Of a DNA stretch of 52,072 bases, positions 1,865 to 26,185 are shown piece after piece (position 1 is the first letter of the stretch; each line of letters opens with the position of its first letter). Position numbers and translations under genes: made by a program. The notes under the pieces are model-generated. The model saw nothing but the letters and a program-made list of their open reading frames with translations. It ran no database searches and was not told where the DNA came from. The stretch comes from Calothrix sp. HK-06 (GTDB lineage Bacteria > Cyanobacteriota > Cyanobacteriia > Cyanobacteriales > Nostocaceae), in the NCBI RefSeq assembly GCF_001904745.1, contig NZ_MRCD01000054.1, forward strand, positions 1 to 52,072, in the 5' to 3' direction.

Positions 1865-4105
1865 TTATTGATTATTTATTAATGCTGCATAATGCCCACC
1901 CAAAGCTAATAGCTCCTCATGAGTACCTCGTTCGACAATAGTACCTGCATTAAAAACCAAAATTACATCAGCATTGCGAATAGTACTCAGTCTATGAGCA
2001 ATAGCAATTCGCGTACATGAGAGATTGCTGATGTTTTGCTCGACCAAACTTTCTGTAACCACATCCAAATGGCTAGTTGCTTCATCCATTAAAAGGATAG
2101 CCGGTTTGTGTGCTAAGGCACGAGCTATTGATAGCCGTTGTCGCTGTCCTCCTGATAATCCACTTCCTCCCTCAGAAATTTTGGTTTCATAACCCATAGG
2201 CATTTGCACAATGTCATCGTGAATACTTGCTAATTTAGCTGCTTCCATAACCTCTTCAAGTGATAGGTTGGGGTTGTTAGCAGTAATGTTGTGACGAATG
2301 GAACTGCTAAATAAAAATGACTCTTGCAGTACGATACCAAATTGACTTCGTAAAGTGCGGTAGTTTAATTTGTGCAAAGGGATATCATCGTAGAGAATTT
2401 CACCTTGAGTTGGGGTGTAGATGCCGAGTAAAAGTTTCGCAAAAGTGCTTTTACCAGAACCAGAACGACCAACCAGCGCAACTTTTTGTCCGGGTTCGAT
2501 AGTGACTGAAATATCACGCAACACCAATGGGGAGTTTGGGTCGTAACGAAAACTAACCTGTTGTAACTCAATTCGACCAGTGAGGGAGGGTGCTGTTTCA
2601 ACTACTTCTATATTTTGTTCTGGTTCTGCTTCCAAAACATCAGCTAATCGCTCCAAATGTCCGCCAACTAACTGTAATTGTTGACCGCTTGATACTAAAG
2701 TTGCTAGCGGCATCAAAAAGGAATTAGCTAGAGCATTTAGTGCTAACATTGTCCCCAAGGTCATTGTTCCCTCAAGTACGCGCAACCCTCCAAACCACAA
2801 AAGAAAGATTGGTGAAAAAGTACGAAGCGCTAACATTACGGTGTCAATCTTAGCTGATAAATGGCTTTTTTGTAGCGAAACATTTAACTGTTTAAAAAAT
2901 AGATTTGACCAATAGTCAAACGCGCGTTCTTCAGAACCGGATGCTTTCAGGGTTTCAATTCCCCTCAAAGCTTCTACCATGTAACTGTTAGACTCGGACT
3001 GCGCTACTAAGTCTCGTTGCACGAGGTGATGTACTTGAGGTGTTGTCCCCAGTAACAAAGCTATTTGCAATAATCCTGCTACCAGGACGGCAATACCAAA
3101 TAAGGGTTCTTGAATGAGTAAAAGTGTTAGATAACCAAGGACAAAAGTACCATCCAAAACCAGTGATATTGTTTGGCTGGTAAGTGTTTCGCGAATAACG
3201 GCATTGCTTCCAAGCCGCATTAATAGGTCGCCGGTTGTCCGCTGCTCAAAAAACCGAAATGGTAGTGAGAGCAAATGGTCAAAGAAGCCCAACATTGTTT
3301 GGGTATCAAGTCGCGCTTGCAAATGAATAAGCAGTCCAGCACGCAAATAACTGGTTACTACTTGAGTTAAAATTAAGATAGTGGCGCCGATGCCAAGCAT
3401 TGTCATTACACCAGCGATATGAAGCGGCAAAATGTAATCTACAAGTATCTTGGTAAAAATAGGCAGCGCTAACCCGAAAACTTGCAATAAAAGTGAAGTA
3501 CCAAGAATTTGGATAAGTAAGCCTGGTGCTTGCAATATATACTGGATGAGGAAGTTGCTCCAAGATAAGTGTTTTTTTGCTCTTTGTCCTTGGAATTGGG
3601 CGCCCTTGTCAAATGTCAAAACTATACCAGTGAAGCTAGCATTAAATTCAGCAGCACTCAACTGGCGCCGTCCGCGAGATGGATCTATAACATCAACCTT
3701 TTTTGATGACCAACGCTCCACAACTATAAAGTGGTCAAAATCCCAATGGATAATAGCTGGTAGTTGTATGTATTGAAAATCTGCTGTTTCTATAGAGTAA
3801 GCTTTAACACGTAAACCGTAGCTGCGGGCAACGTTAGAAATTGCGCGCGCTGTAACACCATCTCGACCAATACCCAAGCGTTCGTAACATTCTGCAACCT
3901 TTGTATTACGCCCGTAGTAGCTAAGAATCATTGCTAGACAGGCGGCGCCACATTCAACTTCGCTCAATTGCCACCTGACAGGAACTCGACGATGCAGCAG
4001 GTTATTTATCCCAGTTTTCTGGAACAACGAAGAACAATTTTGTTTCAGCCAAGCAATAGTTTTTTGGTAGCGAGCGCGCGCTTTTTGATTTCCAACAGCT
4101 TTCAT
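1865..4105 (-). CDS. lanT: Peptidase-containing ABC exporter (LanT type)
   Basis: A 746-residue bifunctional exporter that cuts the leader after its double glycine and moves the mature peptide across the inner membrane. An N-terminal C39 peptidase covers about residues 43-170: catalytic Cys is probably C52 (VECGAACLAMI), with H125 (WDFDHFIVVE) and D141 (VIDPSRG). The membrane domain follows at about 190-470. The ATPase at about 500-746 has Walker A GRSGSGKST, signature LSGGQRQRLSIARAL and Walker B ILLMDEATSHLD, so it looks functional. Precursors with a matching GG site lie at 4629, 18915, 19419 and 25689. The gene is about 11 kb from lanM, on the same strand. A partial copy of the shared leader segment lies about 95 bp upstream. 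Confidence 0.93.
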   Translation of the reverse strand: MKAVGNQKARARYQKTIAWLKQNCSSLFQKTGINNLLHRRVPVRWQLSEVECGAACLAMILSYYGRNTKVAECYERLGIGRDGVTARAISNVARSYGLRVKAYSIETADFQYIQLPAIIHWDFDHFIVVERWSSKKVDVIDPSRGRRQLSAAEFNASFTGIVLTFDKGAQFQGQRAKKHLSWSNFLIQYILQAPGLLIQILGTSLLLQVFGLALPIFTKILVDYILPLHIAGVMTMLGIGATILILTQVVTSYLRAGLLIHLQARLDTQTMLGFFDHLLSLPFRFFEQRTTGDLLMRLGSNAVIRETLTSQTISLVLDGTFVLGYLTLLLIQEPLFGIAVLVAGLLQIALLLGTTPQVHHLVQRDLVAQSESNSYMVEALRGIETLKASGSEERAFDYWSNLFFKQLNVSLQKSHLSAKIDTVMLALRTFSPIFLLWFGGLRVLEGTMTLGTMLALNALANSFLMPLATLVSSGQQLQLVGGHLERLADVLEAEPEQNIEVVETAPSLTGRIELQQVSFRYDPNSPLVLRDISVTIEPGQKVALVGRSGSGKSTFAKLLLGIYTPTQGEILYDDIPLHKLNYRTLRSQFGIVLQESFLFSSSIRHNITANNPNLSLEEVMEAAKLASIHDDIVQMPMGYETKISEGGSGLSGGQRQRLSIARALAHKPAILLMDEATSHLDVVTESLVEQNISNLSCTRIAIAHRLSTIRNADVILVFNAGTIVERGTHEELLALGGHYAALINNQ

Positions 4106-4196
4106 AACCTTACGTGTTACATAATTTACAAAGGCAACAGCAATATTACCCTTCGCGTGCTTCTACATCCGCACTCTGGATATCACTTATAAATAA

Positions 4197-4252
4197 GCTA
4201 TATTTGGTTGCCTAATCTCTACTACTGGGACTTCAACTTATTTATGCAACCC
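4197..4252 (-). promoter_or_regulatory. Partial leader segment upstream of the exporter
   Basis: This stretch matches the segment found upstream of the lanthipeptide precursors: it shares ctactactg and tttatgcaaccct in the same order and spacing. The outer half, with the TTGACA-like box, is missing because the copy breaks at about 4252 into the remnant of lanM. It may supply part of the 5' leader for the exporter gene. A regulatory role is inferred from repetition only. Confidence 0.5.
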
Positions 4253-4397
4253 TGACTTGGCGCCAATTTTACAAACGATAATTAATTTGTTTATTGTTAG
4301 TTTGTGTGGTTTTATTAATAAAATCATTGTCCAGACGCTCAGTGATTGTACTGGCTTTTGCAATAATTTGAATTAACTCTTGCTGTGTAAATTTCAG
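4253..4397 (-). pseudogene. Remnant of a second lanM (first 45 or so codons)
   Basis: Read on the minus strand this region translates to KFTQQELIQIIAKASTITER and onward to NYRL-stop-NWRQV, aligning with the first residues of the intact LanM (KFSQQELIKIIAKASTVSER). The start codon has changed from ATG to CTG (4395-4397) and an in-frame stop follows NYRL. After NWRQV the similarity ends abruptly. The remnant lies downstream of the same terminator that precedes the intact lanM, so it is the decayed counterpart of that gene. Confidence 0.85.
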
Positions 4398-4433
4398 AAT
4401 AATACTCAATATTTAATTATAAAGCATGGTTGT

Positions 4434-4473
4434 AAAAAAGACCCAGAGGTGTTTTATAAGCAATCTCTGGGTC
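4434..4473 (-). terminator. Rho-independent terminator of lanthipeptide locus 1
   Basis: On the minus strand GACCCAGAG and CTCTGGGTC form a perfect 9-bp stem (4465-4473 with 4440-4448) around a 16-base loop, followed by six T. The same hairpin lies at 18839-18879 between the precursors and the intact lanM. Confidence 0.85.
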
Positions 4474-4489
4474 AATTACTACTGAAGAA

Positions 4490-4616
4490 TTTCGGTACTA
4501 TCTAATGCCTAATCGCAACAGGCAGTAATACAGATATATTTAATGCTTATCTGATGTATATTAGTAGTTTAATGGGGCGCCAAGACTTGATTTATTTGGC
4601 TGTCTATTTGCAACTA
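4490..4616 (-). pseudogene. Scar of a lost second precursor gene with its leader
   Basis: The part at about 4548-4616 matches the 5' leader that lies between the two precursors of locus 2: it has tattagtagtttaatgg, gcgccaa, tttatttggct and ctactga in the same order. The part at about 4483-4540 resembles the 3' end of a precursor (gaagaatttcggtactat, caacaggcagtaa). The precursor body between them is gone. Locus 1 therefore once had two precursors in tandem, like locus 2. Confidence 0.6.
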
Positions 4617-4628
4617 CTGAAGGTGCTT

Positions 4629-4943
4629 TTAACCCCAGCAACATTTAGTAACACCAGCCGATGTGACTGTAGTTGTTTTATCGGCCATTCTTCCACCTGC
4701 AACGGCTTCGAGTTGTTCGTCACTTAATTCTGCGGCTGAAAGAACAGAAGGTTTAACAGGTAGTACCAAGTAAACTTTGTTAGCAGTTTCTTCAACAACT
4801 TCTACTTGAATGTTTGAAGGGACTTCTACTCCTAATGCCTTTAATGCAGCATTGGTATTGTTTAATAATTCTTGTTTGAATGCTTCATCTTTCCAAGATT
4901 TAGCAGCAATATCAGCTTGGAGGTCGTGAGACAATTGAGACAT
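4629..4943 (-). CDS. Lanthipeptide precursor, NHLP leader (locus 1)
   Basis: A 104-residue precursor. The leader of 84 residues is of the nitrile-hydratase-like (NHLP) type: KSWKDEAFKQELL, AALKALGVEVPSNI and VYLVLPVKPSV are visible, ending in the cleavage site LEAVAGG. The core is about 20 residues, reading ADKTTTVTSAGVTKCCWG after Arg-Met. It has several Thr, one Ser and two adjacent Cys, so at most two thioether rings can form. The start was placed at MSQLSHD because AAGGA lies 6-7 bases upstream. LanM at 15503 is the likely modifying enzyme and the exporter at 1865 the likely processing enzyme. The final Gly is absent from the locus 2 cores. Confidence 0.92.
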   Translation of the reverse strand: MSQLSHDLQADIAAKSWKDEAFKQELLNNTNAALKALGVEVPSNIQVEVVEETANKVYLVLPVKPSVLSAAELSDEQLEAVAGGRMADKTTTVTSAGVTKCCWG

Positions 4944-5123
4944 ATTCAATCCTTTTTGATGTATATGAAATGTTTAGTAGTTCGCCAAAATTGGATTTAT
5001 TTGGCTCCCTACTTCCTACTACTGAGGCTCGAACTTGTTTATGCAACCCTAAACTCAGATTTTTGAAAAATATTTGGTTGTCAACTGTCAAAGCCTTATC
5101 AAAACTTAGTTTTGAGCATTTGA
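4944..5123 (-). promoter_or_regulatory. Shared upstream segment of precursor (copy 1)
   Basis: This roughly 180-bp stretch is strongly similar to 19731-19913 and 26004-26185, each immediately upstream of a precursor start. It carries a TTGACA-like box (minus strand, about 5085-5092), the small palindrome ATTTTTGAAAAAT near 5068, and the block gggttgcataaacaag. The ribosome site aagga ends the segment. No convincing -10 box is visible at standard spacing. From about 5124 to 5267 I see nothing recognisable. Confidence 0.7.
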
Positions 5124-5267
5124 GGAAATTATTCTAATTCAAAAATTAATTTATATCACTGCTATAAATCCTAACCCCCTAAGTATCGTTAAAAGAAAAC
5201 AACCCCATCAAGGCATAATTTTATTCCTCCACAAGCAAATTCTTAATTGAAAAGCACATAATTTCGT

Positions 5268-5531
5268 TGCAACATAGGGCGAGGTAGAATTACTGGAGAT
5301 GGCGTGGTTGGTTTATCTCGCGCGTTCGTTAGTGCAAAAGTCAAGCGTGTTGTAGTTTCTTTATGGTCAGTACCCGATAACCCGACTGCTTTACTGATGA
5401 CTGAATTCTATCGCAGCGTGCAACGTCAGTCTGATAAAGCCATTGCATTGCGTCAAGCCATGTTGACCACAATGAAACAATATCCGCACCCATTTGATTG
5501 GGCTGCTTTTCTGTTGATTGGTCAACCGTAA
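5268..5531 (+). pseudogene. CHAT protease fragment (C-terminal part)
   Basis: An open frame begins at CNIGRGRITGDGVVGLSRAF and runs to a stop at 5531. It matches the C-terminal third of CHAT domains, which normally read LSACNTGRGRITGDG. The conserved Cys of that motif is the first recognisable residue (5268-5270). A stop codon lies two codons before it, and the His-containing part is absent. It precedes a DUF928 gene and a CHASE2 protein, the partners that the complete module at 35924-41582 also carries. It cannot be an active protease as it stands. Confidence 0.75.
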
Positions 5532-5620
5532 CTATGGTTAATCCACAGTTTCTAGTTGAATGCAAAATCTGAGCTTGCTTTTGGGAATACTTAATTTAGG
5601 TAGTTAACTCCTATATCAAC

Positions 5621-6397
5621 ATGAAATGCATTAAGCCATCGCTATATTATGTAGCCTTTTTTTTACCCTTGTGTTTGAACTGTGTTACGCTTTCTGCTTT
5701 TGCAGCACACGAAATGCAGCTTCAGGCAGAACATACCAAAAAAACTTGGCTTCTTAGCCAGGGATTTAAACCACCACAACGTGGAAACCCTCCTGTAAGT
5801 GCTGGTGGTTCAACCCGTAGTAGTTCTTGCATATCAAGAAACAAACAAATAACTCCCTTAGTACCTCCAAATAAATTAGGGCTAACATTTGCTAAATATC
5901 CAACATTTTTTTGGCATATACCGACATCTGTGACTAAAACAGCCAAGTTGACCATTCTGACAGATAAAAATCAAACCGTATTTTATGAAACATCTTTTAC
6001 ACTTCCGGGTAAACCTGGAATTATTAGCTTTACTCTTCCTAATAGTGCGCCTGCACTTGCAGTAGGTAAAACTTACCGCTGGAAGCTGACAGTTGTTTGT
6101 GATGCTGAAGACGACAGTGGAAACCCAAGTGTAGATGCTTGGGTAGAACGTACTCAGCCAGAATTACGCTTATCACAAGCTTTAGCAAAAGCAGATTCAC
6201 GCAAGTTGCCTACTATCTATGCAGAAGCAGGGATTTGGCATGAAGCGCTAACTACTTTGGTCAAGCTACGTCGTGCCGAGCCAAATAATTCAAAAATTAA
6301 GATGGATTGGCAAAAATTTTTACAATCAGTTGGGCTAGATGCGATTGTAAAAGAGCCATTCATTAATTGCTGTACAAATGATAATTCCTCACAATAG
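5621..6397 (+). CDS. DUF928 family exported protein
   Basis: A 258-residue protein of the cyanobacterial DUF928 family, of unknown function. It has a signal peptide (hydrophobic residues 8-28, ending SAFA) and a conserved central region with PTFFWHIP, LPGKPGIISFTLP and GKTYRWKLTVVCD. The C-terminal part includes YAEAGIWHEALTTL, and the second DUF928 protein at 40806 has the closely similar YAENGIWFDALTTL. It follows the CHAT fragment by about 90 bp and precedes the CHASE2 cyclase by about 130 bp. It is probably periplasmic or outer-membrane associated. Confidence 0.88.
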   Translation: MKCIKPSLYYVAFFLPLCLNCVTLSAFAAHEMQLQAEHTKKTWLLSQGFKPPQRGNPPVSAGGSTRSSSCISRNKQITPLVPPNKLGLTFAKYPTFFWHIPTSVTKTAKLTILTDKNQTVFYETSFTLPGKPGIISFTLPNSAPALAVGKTYRWKLTVVCDAEDDSGNPSVDAWVERTQPELRLSQALAKADSRKLPTIYAEAGIWHEALTTLVKLRRAEPNNSKIKMDWQKFLQSVGLDAIVKEPFINCCTNDNSSQ

Positions 6398-6473
6398 TGC
6401 CGACTTCTTAACAATCAGCACTAAATATCTAATACTCCATGTGATTAAATTTGGTGGGTCATCTCTCAATAAT

Positions 6474-6516
6474 TCTTTCTTCGCGTCCTTTGCGTCCTTT
6501 GTGGTTAATTTTCTTA
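6474..6516. repeat. Short dispersed repeat (cttcgcgtcctttgcgtcc)
   Basis: The string cttcgcgtcctttgcgtcct, followed by ttgtggttaa, belongs to a type of short dispersed repeat common in many bacterial genomes. It lies between the DUF928 gene and the cyclase gene. No other copy was found in this window. Confidence 0.4.
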
Positions 6517-6528
6517 AGAAGCGAATAA

Positions 6529-8781: not shown

Positions 8782-8875
8782 CATTTTAAAATAAAATGTA
8801 ATATTTTTTACAATAAATTTATTTAGTAGTCTGGAACCACGTTCGCACGACAGCTGCACTTGCTGCTATAATTGA

Positions 8876-9058
8876 AGAACTAATGTCGCATCATTTTATA
8901 CATATCGACCCTTAGTTAATGCACGAAAAAACCAGAATGGTGATACTTATTTTTATGTATTTGTTAAGGCAATAAAACAAGGTGTTATGGGAATCCTTTG
9001 GTATGGATTTAACACTACCAAAGAACGAAACGATTTGCATTACAACTTTCAATCGTAA
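8876..9058 (+). pseudogene. Possible decayed coding remnant
   Basis: In the 407 bp between the cyclase and the sugar dehydrogenase there is one open frame of 60 codons without a start codon. It contains NGDTYFYVFVKAIKQGVMG and ILWYGFNTTKERND. The composition looks protein-like but I do not recognise the family. The rest of this gap shows nothing clear. Confidence 0.25.
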
Positions 9059-9188
9059 ACAGGCACCTATCAAACAACCTTACAAGAAATTGAATCACAT
9101 CTATACTACTGAGCGAAAATAGAAGTAATTTTCTGCTATAATTTATCTTGCACGTAGTTATAATTTTTACATTATTCTTTCCAGTTGC

Positions 9189-10643: not shown

Positions 10644-10648
10644 TGTAG

Positions 10649-13279: not shown

Positions 13280-13297
13280 CTTATTGTTTTTTTTTAA

Positions 13298-13786: not shown

Positions 13787-13995
13787 AAAAAATGGCGCAC
13801 ATTGCAAACTTTGCAGCTACTGCCACTATAATCCAAGATTCGCATGAGCGATTGTAAACCTGCGTGATATCAAAGGACTAGTCAGGTCAACTTTGCAAAC
13901 AAGCTTAGTTAATGGCTATCTTTCCCTATATAAGATTTCTTCAGGTACAGTTATGCGTAATGCTCATAGGTTAAAAACTGAGTTGGTTTAAAATT

Positions 13996-15142: not shown

Positions 15143-15153
15143 TAAGGGGAGTA

Positions 15154-15226
15154 ATTAAAGCCTCTCCCCGCTTGCCGAAGCGGCACACTGCGTGAACGGG
15201 GAGAGGTTTGGAGAGGGGTCTTTAAT
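15154..15226. repeat. Palindromic repeat (cctctcccc family)
   Basis: A 73-bp element with attaaag and ctttaat at its ends and an inner cctctccccg / cggggagagg pair. The core recurs at 35858-35904 and, in altered form, at 41625-41670. Its right end supplies the stop codon of the truncated HlyD frame. On the plus strand it could also act as terminator for the DUF4380 gene. Confidence 0.7.
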
Positions 15227-15488
15227 TGTCCCGCGCGCACCCAGCAGCAGTTTGTTGATTTTTATTATTTGTAGGCATAATCACAGCATTCTCGCCCGTA
15301 TATACAGATAGTTTTATAAACAAAGTCGAGATAGTAGTAACTCCTAACAAACTTAACATTCCTAACAGACTCCATAAGAAGATAAAGCTACGAGGGGAGG
15401 CAATTCGCGGTAGTACAGAGTTTTCTTTACTTTGAGTATACTGGCGAATTGCATCAGTACGGAATAACGCGCGATTTTCATCTTTCAT
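15222..15488 (-). pseudogene. Truncated HlyD-type membrane fusion protein
   Basis: An 88-residue frame matching the N terminus of cyanobacterial HlyD-like secretion proteins: ALFRTDAIRQYTQSKENSVL, then PRIASPRSFIFLWSLLGML, leading into one membrane helix (about 33-55). Full proteins run to 400-500 residues with a coiled coil and lipoyl-like domain; here the frame stops inside a palindromic repeat shortly after the helix. It begins 14 bp after the lanM stop, so it was the third gene of the locus 2 operon. It is probably non-functional, though a short membrane anchor cannot be excluded. Confidence 0.7.
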
Positions 15489-15502
15489 TTATTTTTGTCT
15501 CC

Positions 15503-18500
15503 CTAATTAAACAAAAGTACTGAGGGGAGTAAATCTGGATGTGCTAACCGTAGGAGTTCGTAACCAATTCCTGCCACTCCTTGAAAAAAGCCAGGTGTGT
15601 AAGCATCTCTAGGAAGTTGAGGAGAAATACAAAAAGTACCTTCTTGTTCTGCTCTATTAACAATCCAGCTAACTTGTTTGTGAATTTTTTCTAGTAATTC
15701 AGGACAATTAAGTTTGAGTGACGCTGTGAGAAGTACATCAATGCGTCCCAAATTACCACAGCAGAGGTTATCTATTTCCTGCCAGCTACACTTTTGCGTT
15801 GTTTGCAAAGCAATTTCAATTTCTTGGCGAATTTCATCAGTGTCAATAATCGCTAAACTATCCAAACGACTCAAACCAATACCAGGGGCGCCATGACACC
15901 AGCTAATATTAAATGTTGGTTTGCCGTCAACAATCGCATTCGGTCTAAAATCGGGCCAGTTGGCTGCGGTTGGAGAAAATACTTGTCGTTCGTATTCAAT
16001 TGCTTCTAAAGCTGCTTGTAAAAAATCAGTACGCTTAGTTGCTTGATATAGCCGTAATAAAGCGCAAGCAATTCCTGCTGCTCCATGAGAAAATCCAGTT
16101 ATTAGCTTGCCATTGATAGTTGCCCAAGCTTTAAAGCCTGAATCGCTGGTGATGCGGTGGTTGAGTAAATGTTCACCACATGAAGAAGCTACCTCTAAAA
16201 CAGAAGATTCGCCAACAGCATCGTATAAAGCTAACAGTCCTAAAATTGTGCCAGCAGAACCTACGGTAATATCAAAAGAGCGGTCGTTGGCAATTAAGTT
16301 AGGAGTAATTAAAGTTGCAACATGTTTGGCATCTTCTAAAAGAGCGGGTTCCCCTAAGAATTGGCTGCTCCGTACTAAGGCATATATAAGAGAACCTAAC
16401 CCCACAGCTCCACCCATACCAATTTTCTTGGCAATTCTAGAATCAGATTGAGAATTTTGTAACATCTGGCGAATGGGAAGCAAAGCACTCAGCGCCAAGT
16501 CCTTAAATCCAGCACCAGGAGTGATTTTTTCCAAAGCAGCTAAAAATAAGGCAACACCAGCACAACCGTCTCCCAAGTTATAGCCGATAGGCTGAAACTG
16601 GAAGCGTTGGGCATCATGAATATATATCATACCAATCCAGGTGGCGCCACCATCGGCAGCATAAATAGCCCTTTGTTGTAATTCTCTGCCAATTTTTACT
16701 GCTTGTTGAATTAATCGTTCCTGAGTTAAGGAGACAATAGTATCTGTTAATTCCTCATCTTTAGAGGCAATTATATTAATTCTGGCAACGCGCGAATATA
16801 GGGAACTTTTAATTATTGCTAGTTGTTGATTGAGATTGCATTCGCTCAGGGTTTGGATGGACTCAATTACACGGTTATAGCTAGGCTCTTGAAAGCATTG
16901 CTCAATAATTTGATTGGGAGCAACAGTCATTCCATCGCTATTGCAAGTAATTGTGAAAAAGGGGATATCCAACTGTTCCATTGCTTGTTTTTCCACAGTA
17001 AGTATAGGTAATAATGACGCTTTTTCCTCACTTACCAAAAACCCTCGGCTGAGAACATCCAATGCAATACTCCAGTCTGCTCCATCTCGTAGATATTTGG
17101 GGTCAAAGGTTTGATTGAGCAAAACAGTGTAAACTTGAGTAGGGCGACACACGAACCGCACGCGCTGATCAATAAAGCTTGCCAAAGGACTCTCACTATC
17201 TAGAAGTGCTGCTTGTTTTTGCATTAAAAAGCGATACATCAACTGGAAACCATCCACCAGTTCGCTAACATAATCATTTGGCGATAAAGGTTTACCATTC
17301 AAAATAGGAGTATTAGCTTGGGATGGTAAAGAAACCGACTTGCTAATTACAAGTTCCATATTGTCTGTATTTATATCCCGCCATTGCCGCGCGCGGTAAT
17401 TAATCTTCTGTTCGCCAACACCTCCCAAACCACTGATGTCATAAGCTGCTTGGTTATTTTGCTCAAATTCCCAACGCGGTAGCATACCAGTACTTAACAC
17501 CGAATCGTAAACTAGCTGTTTGGCAATTGATTCTGCTTGCGCTTCCCCATCCCCACAAGCTGTTTCTTCCCGTTCTCTTGGTTGCATTAGCATCTCTGGG
17601 TCTATAAGAACTAGATGCTCGCCATTAGCAATTAAATTTTCGTAATGACAGTCAGTACCCGCTAAGATATAGAGCATACAGGTTAGCATTCCAGCCCGTT
17701 GATAAAAACGCTGCGCTGCTGCCTCCGAATCACAGGGCAAATGTTCGACAAATTCTACCCAACCATAGGTAGAGCGATTAAGAACTTTAATAATTTTAAA
17801 AGGTAAGGAAACACCCTGATGATTACACCAATCGAGTAACTCAAAATAAGCAACTTCTATACCTAAATCTTTAGGTTTGTAAATCAACTTTAATCCAGAA
17901 GCAAAGGTCAGAGCAATAACATGGCGCCCTTGATTATGCGAATCAGAAAGTGCAGATTCAATGGTAATAATTTGCCCCAAGTCACTGTCACCTGCTTGGA
18001 AAGTTTGTTGGATGTCCTGCAAGTCAGATGCCAAGCGTTGCAAAAATTCTGCTGTTGCATCAACCCAAAAATCAATTGCAACTGCCACTAAGCGAGCTAA
18101 AACGCTATATTCTTGGAAAAAAGACTTCAGTCCATCACTAAGAAGCTTTTCAACAAATTTTTGATACTGCTCTTTACCGCAAGTCCCTTGCTTTATCCCT
18201 ATTAAACGATTAAGGGAAGGTTGTTGAAATGACCGAAAAATTGAGAATTCTAGCGCTAAGGTTCCAGCACATAATTTAGCTACGCGCTTGAGTAAACCAT
18301 GCTCTAAGCTGTTAACAGCGTTATCAGTCAGAAGCTTCTGTAACTTATAACCTTGAGCTTCTAATTCATTAATTCGCCCATTTAATTTATTTTGAGCAAC
18401 TTGAATAAAAGGTATATAAATGTCCTCAAAGGGAAGCGGGTCTTCAGCAATAACGCAGCGATGAGGCTTTGATATTTCTCCATGTTCCCACTGTTTTTGA

Positions 18501-18802
18501 GAAGCAATTTCGATAATTTCCTGTAAAGTTTCTGCCCATCGAGGTAAAAGTGAATTTTCAGCAAAACCAACACTGCCTAGTATGGGGGCAACAGTATCGA
18601 CATCTAAACCATCCCACGCGAGACGCTTGGCAAACTTTTCTGGATTTCCTTGGGCAACAACTTGGCGCCAAGTTTCTAAACGAGAATTAATTTGCTGATT
18701 GTTAGGTTGTGTAGTATTAATAATAAAATTATTGCCCAGACGCTCGCTAACAGTACTGGCTTTGGCGATAATTTTAATTAGCTCTTGCTGTGAAAATTTC
18801 AT
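15503..18802 (-). CDS. lanM: Class II lanthipeptide synthetase LanM (CCG group)
   Basis: A 1099-residue bifunctional enzyme that dehydrates Ser/Thr in the core and joins them to Cys. The N-terminal dehydratase (DUF4135 type) spans about 120-660, with the kinase-like motifs IYKPKDLGIEVAYFELLDW near 309, AGTDCHYENLIA near 385 and LVLIDPEML near 402. The C-terminal LanC-like cyclase spans about 740-1099. Zinc ligands are probably C969 (WCHGAPG), C1014 and C1015 (LCCGNLGR). The adjacent Cys pair in place of Cys-His marks the CCG group, which includes ProcM and often serves many precursors. It lies downstream of two precursors, across a hairpin terminator. It is the only complete lanM in the window. 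Confidence 0.95.
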   Translation of the reverse strand: MKFSQQELIKIIAKASTVSERLGNNFIINTTQPNNQQINSRLETWRQVVAQGNPEKFAKRLAWDGLDVDTVAPILGSVGFAENSLLPRWAETLQEIIEIASQKQWEHGEISKPHRCVIAEDPLPFEDIYIPFIQVAQNKLNGRINELEAQGYKLQKLLTDNAVNSLEHGLLKRVAKLCAGTLALEFSIFRSFQQPSLNRLIGIKQGTCGKEQYQKFVEKLLSDGLKSFFQEYSVLARLVAVAIDFWVDATAEFLQRLASDLQDIQQTFQAGDSDLGQIITIESALSDSHNQGRHVIALTFASGLKLIYKPKDLGIEVAYFELLDWCNHQGVSLPFKIIKVLNRSTYGWVEFVEHLPCDSEAAAQRFYQRAGMLTCMLYILAGTDCHYENLIANGEHLVLIDPEMLMQPREREETACGDGEAQAESIAKQLVYDSVLSTGMLPRWEFEQNNQAAYDISGLGGVGEQKINYRARQWRDINTDNMELVISKSVSLPSQANTPILNGKPLSPNDYVSELVDGFQLMYRFLMQKQAALLDSESPLASFIDQRVRFVCRPTQVYTVLLNQTFDPKYLRDGADWSIALDVLSRGFLVSEEKASLLPILTVEKQAMEQLDIPFFTITCNSDGMTVAPNQIIEQCFQEPSYNRVIESIQTLSECNLNQQLAIIKSSLYSRVARINIIASKDEELTDTIVSLTQERLIQQAVKIGRELQQRAIYAADGGATWIGMIYIHDAQRFQFQPIGYNLGDGCAGVALFLAALEKITPGAGFKDLALSALLPIRQMLQNSQSDSRIAKKIGMGGAVGLGSLIYALVRSSQFLGEPALLEDAKHVATLITPNLIANDRSFDITVGSAGTILGLLALYDAVGESSVLEVASSCGEHLLNHRITSDSGFKAWATINGKLITGFSHGAAGIACALLRLYQATKRTDFLQAALEAIEYERQVFSPTAANWPDFRPNAIVDGKPTFNISWCHGAPGIGLSRLDSLAIIDTDEIRQEIEIALQTTQKCSWQEIDNLCCGNLGRIDVLLTASLKLNCPELLEKIHKQVSWIVNRAEQEGTFCISPQLPRDAYTPGFFQGVAGIGYELLRLAHPDLLPSVLLFN

Positions 18803-18838
18803 AATAATAGTGAATAATTAAGTATAAAGCATGGCTAT

Positions 18839-18879
18839 AAAAAACGACCCAGAGGTGTTTTGGAAGCAATCTCTGGGTC
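18839..18879 (-). terminator. Terminator/attenuator between precursors and lanM
   Basis: On the minus strand GACCCAGAG and CTCTGGGTC (18871-18879 with 18846-18854) form a perfect 9-bp stem around a 16-base loop, followed by G and six T. It lies after the second precursor and before lanM, so it should keep precursor mRNA in excess over lanM mRNA. It is nearly identical to 4434-4473. Confidence 0.85.
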
Positions 18880-18914
18880 AATTGCTATTGAAGAATTTTG
18901 GTGCTATCGTCTAC

Positions 18915-19226
18915 TTACCAGCAACATCTAGTAACGCCTGCCGATGTAACTGTGCCTGTTTTATCAGCCATTTTTCCACCTGCAACAGCTTCGAGTTGCT
19001 CGTCGCTTAATTCTCTTGAAGCAAGAACAGAAGGTTTAACAGGTAATACCAAGTAAACTTTATTCGCTGTTTCCTCAATCACTTGTACTTCAATGTTTGA
19101 GGGAACTTCTACTCCCAATGCTTTTAATGCTGCATTTGGATTGCTTAACAATTCTTGCTTAAATGCTTCATCTTTCCAAGATTTAGCAATAATATCGGCT
19201 TGGAGGTCGTGAGATAGTTGAGACAT
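18915..19226 (-). CDS. Lanthipeptide precursor, NHLP leader (locus 2, second)
   Basis: A 103-residue precursor with an 84-residue NHLP leader ending LEAVAGG. The core of 19 residues reads ADKTGTVTSAGVTRCCW after Lys-Met. It differs from the precursor at 19419 by one leader residue (Ile instead of Val at position 13), so the pair is a very recent or homogenised duplication. It starts at MSQLSHD, with AAGGA about 7 bases upstream. It is co-transcribed with 19419 and, when the terminator is read through, with lanM. Confidence 0.93.
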   Translation of the reverse strand: MSQLSHDLQADIIAKSWKDEAFKQELLSNPNAALKALGVEVPSNIEVQVIEETANKVYLVLPVKPSVLASRELSDEQLEAVAGGKMADKTGTVTSAGVTRCCW

Positions 19227-19344
19227 ATTTAATCCTTGTTTAATGTGTATTAGTGGTTTAATGGAAGCGCCAAAACCTAGATTTATTTGGCTCTCTTACT
19301 TCCTACTACTGAGACTCGAACTTGTTTATGCAATGGAAGGAAGA

Positions 19345-19389
19345 AACTGACTCAAAGGTGTTTTAATATCTATGTTTGGGTCAGTTTTT
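19345..19389. terminator. Hairpin between the two locus 2 precursors
   Basis: AACTGACTCAAA (19345-19356) and TTTGGGTCAGTT (19375-19386) pair over 12 positions with one mismatch. The T-run follows on the plus strand, so in the direction of precursor transcription this looks more like a processing or spacer hairpin than a classic terminator. A related sequence (tttgggtcagttt) occurs upstream of the TPR gene at about 26595. Confidence 0.5.
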
Positions 19390-19418
19390 GCGCTCAAAAG
19401 TTAGGCGCTATCGTCTAC

Positions 19419-19730
19419 TTACCAGCAACATCTAGTAACGCCTGCCGATGTAACTGTGCCTGTTTTATCAGCCATTTTTCCACCTGCAACAGCTTCGAGT
19501 TGCTCGTCGCTTAATTCTCTTGAAGCAAGAACAGAAGGTTTAACAGGTAATACCAAGTAAACTTTATTCGCTGTTTCCTCAATCACTTGTACTTCAATAT
19601 TTGAGGGAACTTCTACTCCCAATGCTTTTAATGCTGCATTTGGATTGCTTAATAACTCTTGTTTGAATGCTTCATCTTTCCAAGATTTAGCAACAATATC
19701 AGCTTGGAGGTCGTGAGATAGTTGAGACAT
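19419..19730 (-). CDS. Lanthipeptide precursor, NHLP leader (locus 2, first)
   Basis: A 103-residue precursor, first gene of the locus 2 operon, with the same core as its neighbour (ADKTGTVTSAGVTRCCW). The open frame extends 35 codons further upstream, but the true start is the MSQLSHD ATG: it is preceded by AAGGATTAAAT and all copies share this start. The upstream codons lie in the conserved leader segment. The two adjacent Cys near the C terminus limit the product to two rings; the donors must be among the Thr residues and the single Ser. Confidence 0.93.
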   Translation of the reverse strand: MSQLSHDLQADIVAKSWKDEAFKQELLSNPNAALKALGVEVPSNIEVQVIEETANKVYLVLPVKPSVLASRELSDEQLEAVAGGKMADKTGTVTSAGVTRCCW

Positions 19731-19913
19731 ATTTAATCCTTGTTTGATGTGTATTAGTGGTTTAATGGGAGCGCCAAAGCTTGATTGATTTGGCTCTCTA
19801 CTTGCTACTACTGAGGGTCGAACTTGTTTATGCAACCCTCAACCCGGATTTTTCAAAATTATTCGGTTATTAACTGTCAAAGCCTTATTCAGGTTTGGTT
19901 TTGAGCATTTTAG
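19731..19913 (-). promoter_or_regulatory. Shared upstream segment of precursor (copy 2)
   Basis: Homologous to 4944-5123 and 26004-26185, with the same order of blocks: TTGACA-like box near 19875, AT-rich core, gggttgcataaacaag, cagtagtag, gcgccaaa and the aagga ribosome site. The ATTTTTGAAAAAT palindrome is degraded here. It probably holds the promoter and 5' leader of the operon. Between 19914 and 20299 I see only a small palindrome (actccagtttggagt, 19981-19995) and no gene. Confidence 0.7.
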
Positions 19914-20299
19914 ACAATTATGGGGTGTTATTGAAAACCCTTGTAAAAGGCTACGGTCTAGGAAAAGTGACACCGTCTCCACTCCAGTTTGGAGTTTGCA
20001 ATTAAAAGTTCAACTACGAATGCAGCTTAGTTTGGGGAACAGGGGGTGTAGGCGCCTATAATACTAGGGGTCAATCCTTCTGCATTGTTATTTATTAGTA
20101 AAAATTATCAATTGAATGATAGAATATGGTCATTACCCTTACTCATACTTATGGCCTCAATCTTGATATAGCTTTTCCTAAGTGACTAAGGTACATCTAA
20201 ATCTTTATTAGTAAAGTTACCCCTAAAAATGTACCTCACCAGGTAGGGAACCGCTGTAATCCAAGTTTGATTACTTTTTTATACCAAATAAATTTAATT

Positions 20300-21316: not shown

Positions 21317-21414
21317 CAAAAAAATAGCTGCTTTACTAGATAGACATAATCTTTGAAACTCCGTAAGCTAGCCATATACGTAATTAAGAATCTTTTTCTA
21401 TTGGCTTGGGTATT

Positions 21415-24063
21415 ATGAATAGCTTACAGAGATTTTTTATAGCTACTAAGTATATAAATACACAATTGCGGATAATTGCTTTAGGTGTCTTGGCGATCCA
21501 ACCGACTTGGGCTTCACCCCTCTCTATAGACGCGAAGTTGCTTCTCGAAGGGCGTGTTCCCCTTGAGAAAAGAGAGGTTTCCGATAAAATTGGTAGGCTT
21601 TTATTCGCGCAGCAACCTAACAGCACTGTACCCATTACAATTACAGGGGTGAAGATTAATTCTACTGCTAGTGGTATTGAGGTTATTTTGCAAACGACTC
21701 TTGGAAGTAAATTGCAAGTAGTAGACAAGAGTGACACTAAATCATTTACAGTAGATATTCTTAACGCTCAGTTACAGCTACCTAATGGTAATCAATTTCA
21801 ACAAGAAAAGCCCATAGCAGGAATTGCCGAGGTAACGGTAAGCAACCAGAATGCTAATACAATTCGCTTAATGGTAATGGGTGAAACTACTGCACCAAAA
21901 GCGGAATTATTTGATGGTGACGAAGGTTTAATTTTTGGGTTTACACCAGTTGCATCAACTACTCAACAGCCTCAAACGCAACCCACACCAGCACCACAAC
22001 CTCCAGCGACTCAAGAAAAACCCAGCGAGAAACCACAAGCTGATACTAATAATGACCCGATTGAATTAGTGGTGACAGGTGAGCAAGATAGATACCGCGT
22101 ACCCGAATCATCTACAGCCACTAAAATAGAGGTTCCTATACGTGATATTCCCCAGTCAATTCAAGTCATTCCGCGACAGGTTATTGAAGATAGGAAAGTA
22201 ACACGTCTAAGTGAGTTGACAGATAACGTTAGTGGTGTACAGAGACAATCCGGTTACGGTGGACTCTCGTCAACAACATATTATATTCGTGGGTTTGATT
22301 CCTCAGAAAGCTTACGTAATGGGTTTAAGGATTTTGCGTTTACCAGTCCACGCGATACTGCTAATATTGAGCGAGTCGAGTTCCTCAAAGGTCCAGCATC
22401 GGTTCTGTATGGAGCAGGTTCTACTTTAGGTGGTATTGTTAACACTATCACTAAAAAACCACTGACGGAGCCTTTTTACAAGATATCCATGACAGCAGGT
22501 AACTTCAATTTCTATCGTCCAGAAATTGATTTAACTGGTCCTTTAACTGATGATAAATCTTTGTTATATCGTCTGAATCTTGCCTATGAGAATGCCAATA
22601 GTTTCCGCGATGGCGTAGAGAATGAAAGTATTTTTGTATCTCCAGTAATAACTTGGAATATTAGCCAAAATACAACTCTTACAGCGGAATTAGAGTATCA
22701 GAAATATGATTATACTTTTGACCGAGGCTTTTTTCCTGACCCAATTGTCTTTAAACTTCCGGTCAGTAGGTTACTTTTAGGAGAACCAGATTATAGCCGC
22801 AACGAAGTAGAGTCTTTAGCTTTCAATTATAACTTTGAACATAAATTCAGTGAGCAATGGAAAATTCGTCAAGGCTTTAGCCTATTAGAAGTTAATAGCA
22901 ACACTAAAGAGGTAACTCTTGCTAACTTTGCCTCTCCATTTTTAGATGTTGATGGTAGAACCTTACAGCGTAAAGCCTCCGAGTCCAATGGTCCTCAAGA
23001 AAATTACTCGTTGCAAAATGAATTATCGGGTAAATTCAATACAGGAAGCGTGAGGCACAACGTACTAGTTGGCTTAGAGTTATCTCGTAGTTTATTTGGC
23101 TATCAATTTTTTAACGCACCTATTGCTTCCATCGATATTTTTGACCCCAAATATGGTGCTAAACCACGACGAGAAGATTTTGTACCTTCTTATTCTCCAG
23201 AAGAATATGGCGCCAATACAGTTGCACTTTACTTACAGGATTTGATTGAAATTACACCCAACCTCAAACTACTTGCTGGTGGTCGTTTTGACTGGGTAGA
23301 TTCTTTTTACCGAAATGAAGACCGAACAACTGATTTAGAGCAATCAGATTTTAGGTTTTCGCCACGAATTGGTCTCGTCTACCAACCTTCTAACTCAACT
23401 TCGCTTTATGCAAGTTGGTCAAATTCTTTTAGTCCAGAAATCTTTAGCCGTAATCGTACAGGAGAGCCATTTAAACCAACGATTGGAGAACAAATTGAGG
23501 TGGGGATAAAACAGGATTTTTTGGATAATCGGCTTTCTGCAACTTTAGCGCTTTACCAACTTACCAAACAAAACGTACTCACAACTGATCCAGAAGACCC
23601 GGATTTTAGCATCCAGTCAGGTGAACAAAAAAGCCGAGGTATTGAGTTAGATATAGCTGGTGAAATTTTACCTGGTTGGAGGCTTATTGCGACCTATGCT
23701 TACACTGATGCTTTTGTTAGTAAAGATAATTTGCTACCAGTTGGAGATAGGTTAGTTAATATACCATACAACAGCGCTAGTCTATGGACAACTTATGAAT
23801 TTCAAAAAGGTTCATTGCAAGGTTTCGGATTTGGGTTGGGAGCTGTTTATGCTGGTGAACGGGAAGTACAACTACCAAATACCAGAACTAAACTGCCTTC
23901 GTATATACGTGCAGATGCAGCTTTATTCTATCGGCTGAATAATTATAAATTTGGTTTAAATTTTAAGAATTTATTCAGTACAAAGTATTACGACACTCAG
24001 GGTTTTTTCATTACTCCTAACGCACCTTTTACAGTCCTTGGAAGCGTTTCAGTAGAGTTTTGA
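21415..24063 (+). CDS. TonB-dependent siderophore receptor with AMIN domain
   Basis: An 882-residue outer-membrane receptor. Order: signal peptide (about 1-34), AMIN domain (about 65-180), a Pro/Gln linker, plug domain from about 220 (DIPQSIQVIPRQVIEDRKV; YYIRGFDSSESLRNGF; ERVEFLKGPASVLYGAG), then the beta-barrel, ending PFTVLGSVSVEF with a C-terminal Phe. It is of the FhuA/FecA-like siderophore class; the N-terminal AMIN domain is typical of cyanobacterial receptors. The start at ATG 21415 is chosen over a TTG upstream. Codons for about residues 38-60 lie in a repeat-like palindromic insertion. The ligand cannot be told. Confidence 0.93.
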   Translation: MNSLQRFFIATKYINTQLRIIALGVLAIQPTWASPLSIDAKLLLEGRVPLEKREVSDKIGRLLFAQQPNSTVPITITGVKINSTASGIEVILQTTLGSKLQVVDKSDTKSFTVDILNAQLQLPNGNQFQQEKPIAGIAEVTVSNQNANTIRLMVMGETTAPKAELFDGDEGLIFGFTPVASTTQQPQTQPTPAPQPPATQEKPSEKPQADTNNDPIELVVTGEQDRYRVPESSTATKIEVPIRDIPQSIQVIPRQVIEDRKVTRLSELTDNVSGVQRQSGYGGLSSTTYYIRGFDSSESLRNGFKDFAFTSPRDTANIERVEFLKGPASVLYGAGSTLGGIVNTITKKPLTEPFYKISMTAGNFNFYRPEIDLTGPLTDDKSLLYRLNLAYENANSFRDGVENESIFVSPVITWNISQNTTLTAELEYQKYDYTFDRGFFPDPIVFKLPVSRLLLGEPDYSRNEVESLAFNYNFEHKFSEQWKIRQGFSLLEVNSNTKEVTLANFASPFLDVDGRTLQRKASESNGPQENYSLQNELSGKFNTGSVRHNVLVGLELSRSLFGYQFFNAPIASIDIFDPKYGAKPRREDFVPSYSPEEYGANTVALYLQDLIEITPNLKLLAGGRFDWVDSFYRNEDRTTDLEQSDFRFSPRIGLVYQPSNSTSLYASWSNSFSPEIFSRNRTGEPFKPTIGEQIEVGIKQDFLDNRLSATLALYQLTKQNVLTTDPEDPDFSIQSGEQKSRGIELDIAGEILPGWRLIATYAYTDAFVSKDNLLPVGDRLVNIPYNSASLWTTYEFQKGSLQGFGFGLGAVYAGEREVQLPNTRTKLPSYIRADAALFYRLNNYKFGLNFKNLFSTKYYDTQGFFITPNAPFTVLGSVSVEF

Positions 24064-24139
24064 GAATCATTATATCAAATTTGCGCTTGGTGAAATGTCT
24101 GTTCAAAACATCTTCCGGTGAAACATCACTAAAATAACC

Positions 24140-25285
24140 ATGAAATCTAGGAAACTCCGAAATATCGTTTTTACCCTTCACCGCTATATCGGTCTAGTTG
24201 TAGGCTTGATTGTAGCTGTCATTGGCTTAACTGGTAGCTTGTTAATATTTGAGCCGGAAATCGAGCATTTTCAAGTCTCACAGCGATTTGGTAATATAAC
24301 ACCCCAAGGACAACTGTTATCAATCGATTCAATATTAGAAAATATTAAAGCTGAGATTTCTCAAAAAGCTGACCTCAAAATAGGCTCTATTATAGTGCCA
24401 AAAGATCCAACATCACCTTATGAAGCCCGTTTATGGGACACTAATGATAAACTTACGCAGATGTTCATCAACCCTTACACGGGTAAAATGATGGGTATGA
24501 TGAAGGAAAAATCTAGTTTTTTGCAATGGCTTTTAAGACTTCATTACGAACTTTTGGCTGGAAAAACTGGAATGGTCATAGCTGGAATTGCTGGACTATT
24601 TTTATTTATACTTTCTGCCACTGGGTTGATTCTTTGGCCTGGTTGGCGGAAACTGATTGCTGGATTTAAAATTAAATCAAATGCTCATCCCAAACGGTTT
24701 AATTTTGATATTCACAAAGTAGCAGGAGTTGTTGCTGCTGTTTTTTTAACTTTTACTGGTTTTACGGGTTTTTGCTGGAACTTTTATGATTGGTCGAGTT
24801 CAGCCATTTATGCGTTAACTTTTACCTCCAAACCAACAGAACTAGTTTCTAAACCAATCTCAGGTAAAGCTCCTGTTGGGCTGTCGCAAGTATTACTTAA
24901 TGCTGACGCAGCCATACCTAAAGCAGTAACAACCTATATTGGAATACCAGATAAACATGATGGAGTTATCAGGGTAGGTAAAAGACAAACCCATGAAACA
25001 AGTATCTACGGTCAGAGTGAGATTACGCTAGATCAATATAGTGGACAAGTTTTACGAGTTGCTGATAGTAAGTCTCTGAATTTAGGCGATAACATTCTCA
25101 ACTCTTTTGCTCCCCTACATTACGGTACTTTCTGGGGATTGCCAAGCCGTATTCTTTATGTATTTGTGGGACTAGCACCATTAATTCTTTTTGTTACTGG
25201 CTTTGTCATGTGGTGGTATCGCAAGCGCAAGAAATACAAGGGAGATAAAATACTATCACCTGAATTTAAGCATATTAGTAAATAA
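24140..25285 (+). CDS. PepSY-domain membrane protein (iron-uptake associated)
   Basis: A 381-residue inner-membrane protein of the PepSY-associated TM family, often found next to TonB-dependent siderophore receptors and proposed to reduce ferric siderophores. Membrane segments lie near residues 10-35 (HRYIGLVVGLIVAVIGLTGS), 140-175 (GMVIAGIAGLFLFILSATG), 195-220 (HKVAGVVAAVFLTFTGFTG) and 340-370 (VFVGLAPLILFVTGFVMWWY). Conserved His residues (HRY, LHYELL, DIHK, LHYGTF) could bind haem. It lies 76 bp downstream of the receptor and is probably in its operon. Confidence 0.9.
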   Translation: MKSRKLRNIVFTLHRYIGLVVGLIVAVIGLTGSLLIFEPEIEHFQVSQRFGNITPQGQLLSIDSILENIKAEISQKADLKIGSIIVPKDPTSPYEARLWDTNDKLTQMFINPYTGKMMGMMKEKSSFLQWLLRLHYELLAGKTGMVIAGIAGLFLFILSATGLILWPGWRKLIAGFKIKSNAHPKRFNFDIHKVAGVVAAVFLTFTGFTGFCWNFYDWSSSAIYALTFTSKPTELVSKPISGKAPVGLSQVLLNADAAIPKAVTTYIGIPDKHDGVIRVGKRQTHETSIYGQSEITLDQYSGQVLRVADSKSLNLGDNILNSFAPLHYGTFWGLPSRILYVFVGLAPLILFVTGFVMWWYRKRKKYKGDKILSPEFKHISK

Positions 25286-25301
25286 TATTGTTGGATTTGC
25301 T

Positions 25302-25335
25302 CTAAATAACTGTACGTAGGCTGAAATACTAGAGC
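25302..25335. repeat. 34-bp dispersed repeat, copy 1
   Basis: This stretch, starting ctaaataactgtacgtag, recurs at 43874-43907 with two differences in 34 positions, both copies in the same orientation and just after a gene end. Its nature is unknown. Further on, at 25431-25487, aattaagttaa and ttaacttaatt form an 11-bp inverted repeat that may terminate the uptake operon. Confidence 0.6.
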
Positions 25336-25534
25336 AGATTGTTTTAGGGTGGAATGCCCAACAAAGCGAGAGCGAACGACCGCCAAAAGACAAAGATGAA
25401 TCGATTTTCTACAAGCCATTGGGGTAGGTAAAATTAAGTTAAACTAAGGGTCTCTTCACCAAAGCAAGTTAGCTTAACTTAATTCCTCCTATTGGCAGTT
25501 GTAATTGAAGCAATTGTGGTACTATTTGTGATGC

Positions 25535-25666
25535 TTACCAGCAACATTTAGTGACACCTTCCGATGTGACTGTGGTGCTTTTATCAGCCTTTCTTCCACC
25601 TGCAACAGCTTCGAGTTGCTCGTCGCTTAATTCTGTTGAAGCAAGAACAGAAGGTTTAACAGGTAG
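25535..25666 (-). pseudogene. 3' half copy of a lanthipeptide precursor
   Basis: The frame from LPVKPSVLASTELSDEQ to the stop reproduces the last part of the leader, the GG site and a core (ADKSTTVTSEGVTKCCW after Arg-Lys). The first 60 residues of the leader are missing and no proper start exists. It stands in tandem, downstream of the intact precursor at 25689. The core differs from that neighbour at several positions, so it diverged before or after truncation. It is probably not expressed as a usable precursor. Confidence 0.8.
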
Positions 25667-25688
25667 GTGCGATTTTCTAACCTTGGTC

Positions 25689-26003
25689 TTAACCCCAGCA
25701 ACACTTAGTAACGCCTGCCACTGTGACTGTACCTGTTTTATCAGCCATTCTTCCACCTGCAACAGCTTCGAGTTGCTCGTCGCTTAATTCTGTTGAAGCA
25801 AGAACAGAAGGTTTAACAGGTAGTACCAAGTAAACTTTATTCGCCGTTTCCTCTATCACTTGTACCTCAATATTTGAGGGAACTTCTACTCCCAACGCTT
25901 TTAAAGCTGCGTTGGGATTTCTTAACAATTCTTGTTTGAATGCTTCATCTTTCCAATATTTAGCAACGATTTCGGCTTGGAGATCGTGAGATAATTGAGA
26001 CAT
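25689..26003 (-). CDS. Lanthipeptide precursor, NHLP leader (locus 3)
   Basis: A 104-residue precursor with NHLP leader (KYWKDEAFKQELL, AALKALGVEVPSNI) ending LEAVAGG, and a 20-residue core reading ADKTGTVTVAGVTKCCWG after Arg-Met. Val replaces the otherwise constant Ser, so all ring donors here must be Thr. There is no lanM or exporter beside it; modification would depend on LanM 7 kb away. It starts at MSQLSHD, with AAGGA upstream. The full upstream segment is present, so the gene is likely transcribed independently. Confidence 0.92.
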   Translation of the reverse strand: MSQLSHDLQAEIVAKYWKDEAFKQELLRNPNAALKALGVEVPSNIEVQVIEETANKVYLVLPVKPSVLASTELSDEQLEAVAGGRMADKTGTVTVAGVTKCCWG

Positions 26004-26185
26004 ATTCAATCCTTATTTGATGTGTATTAATTGTTGATTCGGAGCGCCAAAACTTGATTTATTCTGCTCTCTACTTCCTACTACTGAATCGCCAACTTAT
26101 TTATGCAACCCTAAACTCAGATTTTTGAAAAATATTTGGTTATTAACTGTCAAAGCCTTATCCAAGCTTAATTTTCAGCATTTGG
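26004..26185 (-). promoter_or_regulatory. Shared upstream segment of precursor (copy 3)
   Basis: Nearly the same as 4944-5123: TTGACA-like box near 26148, ATTTTTGAAAAAT palindrome at about 26120-26132, gggttgcataaataag, and the aagga ribosome site. It lies back to back with a fourth, inverted copy at 26436-26610 that faces the TPR gene. The 250 bp between the two copies hold no gene; I see only a common cccccatgatttggagg-type repeat near 26247. Confidence 0.7.

Follow-up and report, generated by a model that had tools for sequence, protein, structure and literature searches.

A predicted lanthipeptide gene cluster of Calothrix sp. HK-06 with near-identical precursor copies and one CCG-type LanM

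Introduction

Why would a bacterium maintain several copies of almost the same modified peptide alongside a single enzyme to modify them? A locus of the cyanobacterium Calothrix sp. HK-06 raises this question. Four intact precursor genes with NHLP leaders and nearly identical cores lie at three places across 22 kb, together with one lanM gene and one exporter carrying a C39 peptidase domain. The window (the whole stretch of DNA analyzed) spans positions 1-52072 of contig NZ_MRCD01000054.1, which is 60,575 bases long and belongs to a genome of 9.99 Mb; genome-based placement assigns Calothrix sp. PCC 7103 and Calothrix sp. FI2-JRJ7 to the same genus. An earlier interpretation made from the letters alone, hereafter the sequence-only reading, proposed that many precursors yield nearly one product here, for reasons of dosage or separate regulation. 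Our analysis identifies the locus as an apparently functional class II lanthipeptide gene cluster. We consider it probable that the main effect of its near-identical precursors, served by one LanM and one exporter, is a higher dose of nearly one product.

Results and Discussion

Four intact precursors share one predicted bifunctional LanM

Family searches recovered the precursors, LanM and exporter where the sequence-only reading had placed them. All of these, along with a fifth precursor fragment, are encoded on the minus strand (Table 1). Precursors A-D are 103-104 residues long and match the NHLP-leader family with E-values of 8e-28 to 1e-30 (family scores of 96-105 bits); each ends in a 19-20-residue core that follows a Gly-Gly site and varies at few positions. 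The precursor regions form direct repeats of 300 nt with 87-98% identity, which together with the leader E-values places the family beyond chance. Motifs compared across the cores read ADKTTTVTSAGVTKCCWG in A, ADKTGTVTSAGVTRCCW in B and C, and ADKTGTVTVAGVTKCCWG in D. All are close to ADKTxTVTSAGVTKCCW, the shared motif originally proposed, which proves looser than written in that A, B/C and D differ. The four full precursors claimed are present, and a fifth, truncated copy exists besides. It keeps residues 60-103 (82% identity) with the core KADKSTTVTSEGVTKCCW, lacks leader residues 1-59 and scores 18.9 bits against TIGR03793, under the cut-off of 50.9. A genome-wide NHLP-leader search returned six places, four of them above the family cut-off and all four inside the window.

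Precursor B, which has a Gly-Gly leader and a Ser/Thr/Cys core, ends about 110 bp ahead of lanM. The encoded enzyme is predicted to be bifunctional, as the dehydratase and LanC-like cyclase families both match above cut-off. That the window holds the one complete lanM is borne out genome-wide: PF13575 and PF05147 each occur in one place, no second LanM/LanC-like gene was found, and a different lanM that might serve these precursors from elsewhere was looked for in this genome without success. A lanM stump at 4255-4531 bears out the hint contained in the word "complete."

We aligned the LanM active site with that of CylM (5dzt), counting CylM columns by hand. The dehydratase residues named in the available text on CylM (D252, H254, K274, D347, H349, N352, D364, R506 and T512; PMC4550811) are identical in LanM at all nine positions (D287, H289, K309, D384, H386, N389, D401, R549 and T555). 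The CylM zinc ligands C875, C911 and H912 correspond to C969, C1014 and C1015, so that the third ligand is Cys, not His; the motifs read WCHG at 968 and LCCGN at 1013-1017. A third Cys zinc ligand is what the CCG motif denotes in ProcM-like enzymes, according to the part of a review available to us (PMC10783134). By its zinc motif, then, the enzyme is a predicted member of the CCG (ProcM-like) group, in keeping with the class II cluster and CCG-type LanM first proposed.

In the explanation we favor, this one LanM would phosphorylate and dehydrate Ser/Thr residues in the C-terminal core and link the neighboring Cys pair to dehydro-residues. As the core holds two Cys, it could form no more than two thioether rings, a ceiling also given by the sequence-only reading. 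The exporter's C39 domain would cleave after Gly-Gly and export a product of 19-20 residues. Calculated [M+H]+ values of the linear cores are 2115.998 (A), 2014.951 (B and C) and 2084.009 (D), from which each dehydration would subtract 18.011.

Precursor copies appear to be maintained by selection in a rearranged locus

The arrangement in PCC 7103 is compact: two precursors, P1 and P2, are followed by lanM and a gene for an 88-aa protein, and beyond these, at a distance of 3.9 kb, lies the exporter. LanM is 93% identical between the two genomes. The block of B, lanM and the 88-aa gene is colinear with PCC 7103 over 4.2 kb at 93%, as is the exporter block over 2.4 kb at 93%. In the window some 10 kb separates the two blocks; A lies next to the exporter, and D is found 6 kb past C. 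The description of the family as dispersed is apt for its three places over 22 kb; it is less so for the layout, which keeps one strand and the relative order of PCC 7103. FI2-JRJ7 has a single A-like precursor, with an open reading frame, beside a frameshifted and truncated exporter. Its sole LanM match, at 49% identity, is not the ortholog, and the orthologous lanM has been lost.

An alternative is that the locus is decaying and rearranging and that its copies are debris of recent duplications, for the most part neutral; only B, next to lanM, would matter, and copy number would have no function. The dead pieces at 4255-4620, 25535-25669 and 26436-26656, the ISL3 transposase at 111-1370, the loss of lanM in FI2-JRJ7 and the near identity of B and C are all consistent with it. 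We nevertheless regard it as unlikely: A and D are old relative to B (synonymous divergence, dS, 0.57 for A-B and 0.29 for B-D), yet their leaders, cores and exact upstream elements are intact, and the ratio of nonsynonymous (dN) to synonymous divergence of A and D is near 0.1. By NG86, dN/dS is 0.066/0.570 for A-B and 0.043/0.482 for A-P1, a ratio of about 0.1 in each case. Compared with PCC 7103, the exporter gives 0.022/0.219 (ratio 0.10) and lanM 0.035/0.198 in a codon alignment (ratio 0.18), the two lanM genes also differing by compensating indels. A and P1 have identical core peptides despite five silent codon changes (0.000/0.520). On these estimates the precursor copies appear to be under purifying selection, which with the near-identical cores upholds the proposal of many precursors for nearly one product.

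The A lineage is older than the split from PCC 7103, because its dS is 0.48 to P1 and 0.57 to B, compared with 0.20 for lanM. Leaders differ at 7 of 252 bases between B and C and at 4 of 252 between P1 and P2, compared with 14-18 of 252 between genomes. This greater closeness within than across genomes points to homogenization of neighboring copies. The simplest history would be that an ancestral cluster was duplicated and lost different parts in each lineage while neighboring precursors were homogenized. The extra copies that we propose to increase dose would thus derive from segmental duplication, homogenization and decay of an ancestral precursor-precursor-lanM-exporter cluster.

The same comparisons bear on a second alternative, that the cell requires two slightly different products, one with a T-T-T core that ends in CCWG (A and P1) and one with a T-G-T core that ends in CCW (B, C and P2), acting as a two-peptide system or a tuned mixture. 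HK-06 and PCC 7103 each have both forms, the cores of A and P1 encode the same protein despite their silent differences, and the P1 and P2 cores differ at 4 of 57 bases, as many as separate their entire leaders. The differences between the forms are nonetheless small, D mixes their features (TGT with CCWG), and FI2-JRJ7 retains the first form only. Partners in known two-peptide lantibiotics are clearly different, which also counts against this idea. On balance, we judge a requirement for two products improbable.

A shared upstream element favors dosage over separate regulation

A 31-bp element precedes all four intact precursors and the exporter. The pattern TTGCATAAAYAAGTTN6YCAGTAGTAG has six exact sites in the window against zero expected from 100 shuffles; it was derived from the copies themselves, so the zero expectation speaks for common descent or constraint rather than function. 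In PCC 7103 the element is exact before P1 and P2 and has two mismatches before the exporter, and in FI2-JRJ7 it lies ahead of the precursor and ahead of the exporter remnant. A 66-base query around the element gave matches at E <= 0.01 in these genomes at this locus only; with a 150-base query, one marginal hit fell outside the locus (contig C215, E 0.008), and it does not cover the element. Within the 108 bases ahead of the start codons, A and B differ at 12 of 102 positions, far below their synonymous sites.

lanM has no such element of its own, and a terminator-like hairpin with a T-run separates it from precursor B. Hairpins were assessed by folding in place of a simple terminator scan, which returned zero terminators for loops of 3-8, a range that the loop between B and lanM exceeds. 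Absence of the element and a stable T-run hairpin after B fit production of lanM by partial read-through. In the proposed explanation, the element would turn on the precursor copies and exporter jointly, and read-through past the terminator would supply less enzyme than peptide. We infer that an element common to four precursors and the exporter, with a hairpin ahead of lanM, favors common control and argues for dosage and against separate regulation. Of the two reasons originally put forward, dosage thus appears the better.

A more elaborate version may also be entertained. The cluster might possess its own regulon, defined by a lineage-specific element before precursors and exporter and absent before lanM, which would put every copy under a single switch, with gene conversion keeping the TTT...CCWG and TGT...CCW forms distinct across species and the cell releasing a fixed two-form mixture of one lanthipeptide. 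We offer this as speculation and think it doubtful.

Several observations weigh against an increase in dose of one exported product. The best NCBIfam match of the exporter, TIGR03796 (NHLM_micro_ABC1), reaches 664 bits, below the cut-off of 853. Genome-wide, 16 C39 domains score above cut-off, so 15 others could export the peptide, and the claim of a single C39 exporter is correct for the window only. Neither a full-length HlyD nor a protease was found beside lanM. Of the candidates for how the element might act, a sigma-70 promoter gained no support (2 sites against 3.1 expected, 18700-20000 scanned), a structured 5' leader RNA was rejected (four leaders no better than shuffles, z -1.69, -0.58, -0.49 and +0.96), and an Rfam search matched no family. 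Constraint on the core is uneven, with dN/dS of 0.047/0.079 for B-P2 and 0.102/0.250 for B-P1. Finally, the precursor of FI2-JRJ7 is open with lanM lost and the exporter broken, so that an open precursor is no proof of use.

Table 1. Features of the predicted lanthipeptide locus in window coordinates
Feature	Position	Strand	Remarks
C39 peptidase-ABC exporter, PCAT type, 746 aa	1865-4105	-	PF03412, PF00664, PF00005
31-bp element of exporter	4219-4249	-	Exact pattern match
Relic: precursor-unit end, terminator hairpin, first ~85 codons of a second lanM	4255-4531	-	Start codon changed, internal stop
Terminator-like hairpin with T-run, inside lanM relic	4440-4473	-	Fold z -4.03
Precursor upstream region without precursor	4532-4620	-	Full 31-bp element absent; repeat D6; matches PCC 7103 upstream regions
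Precursor A	4629-4943	-	Core RMADKTTTVTSAGVTKCCWG; TIGR03793 96.1 bits (cut-off 50.9)
31-bp element of precursor A	5016-5046	-	Exact pattern match
88-aa single-transmembrane protein, downstream of lanM	15222-15488	-	Possible HlyD N-terminal remnant
lanM, 1099 aa, CCG type	15503-18802	-	TIGR03897 1007 bits (cut-off 304); PF13575 and PF05147 above cut-off
Terminator-like hairpin with T-run, between precursor B and lanM	18846-18879	-	Fold z -3.61
Precursor B	18915-19226	-	Core KMADKTGTVTSAGVTRCCW; TIGR03793 105.1 bits
31-bp element of precursor B	19303-19333	-	Exact pattern match
Precursor C	19419-19730	-	Core same as B; TIGR03793 104.1 bits
31-bp element of precursor C	19805-19835	-	Exact pattern match
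Fifth precursor copy, leader-less fragment	25535-25669	-	Leader end and core RKADKSTTVTSEGVTKCCW; leader start gone
Precursor D	25689-26003	-	Core RMADKTGTVTVAGVTKCCWG; TIGR03793 102.7 bits
31-bp element of precursor D	26078-26108	-	Exact pattern match
Inverted relic: precursor upstream region	26436-26656	+	Exact element at 26510-26540; no precursor inside

The exporter and an 88-aa membrane protein in related genomes

The exporter is 96% identical to its counterpart in PCC 7103 and 72% identical to one in a genome (G061) where the exporter adjoins lanM. Relatives at E <= 1e-250 occur in 6 of 150 genomes counting this one, and in four of the five others lanM lies within 4 kb of the exporter ortholog. 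The 88-aa protein, without match in Pfam and NCBIfam searches, has an 89% identical counterpart at the same position in PCC 7103. It shares 49% identity over 37 aa with a 197-aa protein encoded between lanM and exporter in G061, and shows a weak, N-terminal likeness (26%, E 6e-4) to a full HlyD in a further region (L068).

The G061 cluster (L143) resembles ours in its exporter, in the related small membrane protein encoded between its lanM and its exporter, and in a core ending in NCCW. It differs in its leaders, which are Nif11-like by eye, in its cores, in a LanM of 48% identity and in having no shared upstream element (the 31-bp element was not found in G061). There, the related exporter handles precursors whose leaders differ from ours, an indication that LanM clusters exchange exporter and precursor families with one another.

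Repeated cores and adjacent cysteines recur among LanM clusters

The sequence-only reading took both the near-identical cores and the adjacent Cys pair to be out of the ordinary. We surveyed 40 Nostocales LanM regions, chosen by rank among the LanM places of relatives rather than at random. Precursors were found by motif and some were missed (two known places in G026 and one in G043, for example), so all counts are lower bounds: at least 28 of the 40 regions have a recognized precursor and at least 15 have more than one. At least 5 of the 40 contain cores that pair at 70% identity or higher, including one region with ten mutually similar cores, nine of them identical. This is at odds with repeated near-identical cores being exceptional. 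The adjacent Cys pair fares likewise, appearing in a core in at least 8 of the 28 regions with a recognized precursor; one of these cores ends in NCCW, and one of the eight regions (L151) rests on an atypical leader motif. The LanM region L120 (G071:C1:3158500-3177500) has eleven precursors, nine of which share the core VCLGWSFAKVCVAWSFARNANKSV, and a close variant of the repeated core also occurs beside lanM in G071. Two gammaproteobacterial regions (L074 and L079) have NHLP-like precursors with the very short tail LCCCGW.

Cerecidins are likewise encoded by tandem precursor copies. A Bacillus cereus cluster with 13 identical precursors is described in print, in the portion of the source available (PMC7268733). 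These two systems and G071 have in common with the present locus one enzyme and many copies of nearly one core; their copies are in tandem, whereas those of our locus are scattered across 22 kb and interspersed with relics.

Cyanobacterial group IV (LanM) bacteriocin clusters, as described in the available text of Wang, Fewer and Sivonen (2011; PMC3140520), contain several NHLP/Nif11 precursors (mean 3.81 per cluster). They share with our locus a LanM with a short-type C39-ABC transporter, several double-glycine precursors, and frequent truncations and rearrangements. Diverse cores are stressed in that text, in contrast to almost one sequence here, and the most that our locus could retain of HlyD is an 88-aa remnant.

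The prochlorosin/ProcM and SyncM systems also combine a CCG-type LanM with several precursors, some distant (PMC11667668 and PMC10783134, as far as the accessible parts go). Their leaders are Nif11 and their cores very diverse, unlike the NHLP leaders and nearly single core here. A further alternative is a combinatorial system like that of ProcM, with this LanM additionally modifying other, non-NHLP precursors encoded elsewhere in the genome. It would accord with the CCG zinc motif, which reviews link to substrate tolerance in the passages available (PMC10783134, PMC12328550). One LanM with many diverse cores is not what we find: the cores are nearly identical and no further NHLP precursor scores above cut-off genome-wide, although Nif11 (TIGR03798) precursors were not searched for. 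We consider such a system very unlikely.

The core itself is narrowly distributed. A genome search found it in 3 of 150 related genomes, all of one genus, and cores ending in [KR]CCW were found nowhere else across all fetched loci. In a 386-genome draw of the phylum, among matches at E <= 1e-15, only this genome has it, the tail of one match (G182) not being resolved; a contig scan limited to six peptide patterns found it in 2 of 26 loci. Plasmid origin of the precursor was rejected, as 8 of 72,556 plasmid records match, each below 60% identity, the cores of these eight not being read. The strings VTKCCW, TSAGVTKCC and TVTSAGVT were not found in the literature searched, nor was this cluster among the matches listed for Calothrix, PCC 7103 and lanthipeptide.

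The three genomes present three stages, compact in PCC 7103, expanded in HK-06 and decayed in FI2-JRJ7. They provide a clearly bounded setting in which to ask why the cores diversify in some cyanobacterial LanM systems while others keep copies of one. The upstream element is directly testable, and the chemistry of a short two-Cys core should be easily read by mass spectrometry. The cluster leaves the general picture of lanthipeptide biosynthesis unchanged.

Relics and neighboring genes

Between A and the exporter, the 277-bp lanM relic is 84% identical to 18660-18844 and 81% to 18840-18934, and it also aligns with the PCC 7103 segment where precursor, terminator and the beginning of lanM meet. 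The inverted relic past D likewise holds a stretch resembling the PCC 7103 precursor-lanM junction. Its element lies 106 bp ahead of a TPR-repeat gene (26647-27924, plus strand), and the junction match reaches the first codons of that gene, which may therefore have captured the cluster's upstream region.

Between C and D, the segment 20267-25285 encodes an AraC-type regulator, a TonB-dependent receptor with an AMIN domain and, by eye, a possible PepSY-type membrane protein; it is likely a siderophore-uptake block inserted in the cluster. At the exporter end lies the intact-looking ISL3-family transposase gene, flanked by 38-bp inverted repeats at 46-83 and 1347-1384. From 45371 to 52072 and on through the rest of the contig runs the gene for a giant repeat protein, more than 2200 aa of which fall inside the window. 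The protein has an end resembling a lipase, and its gene adjoins the cluster in PCC 7103 and FI2-JRJ7 too.

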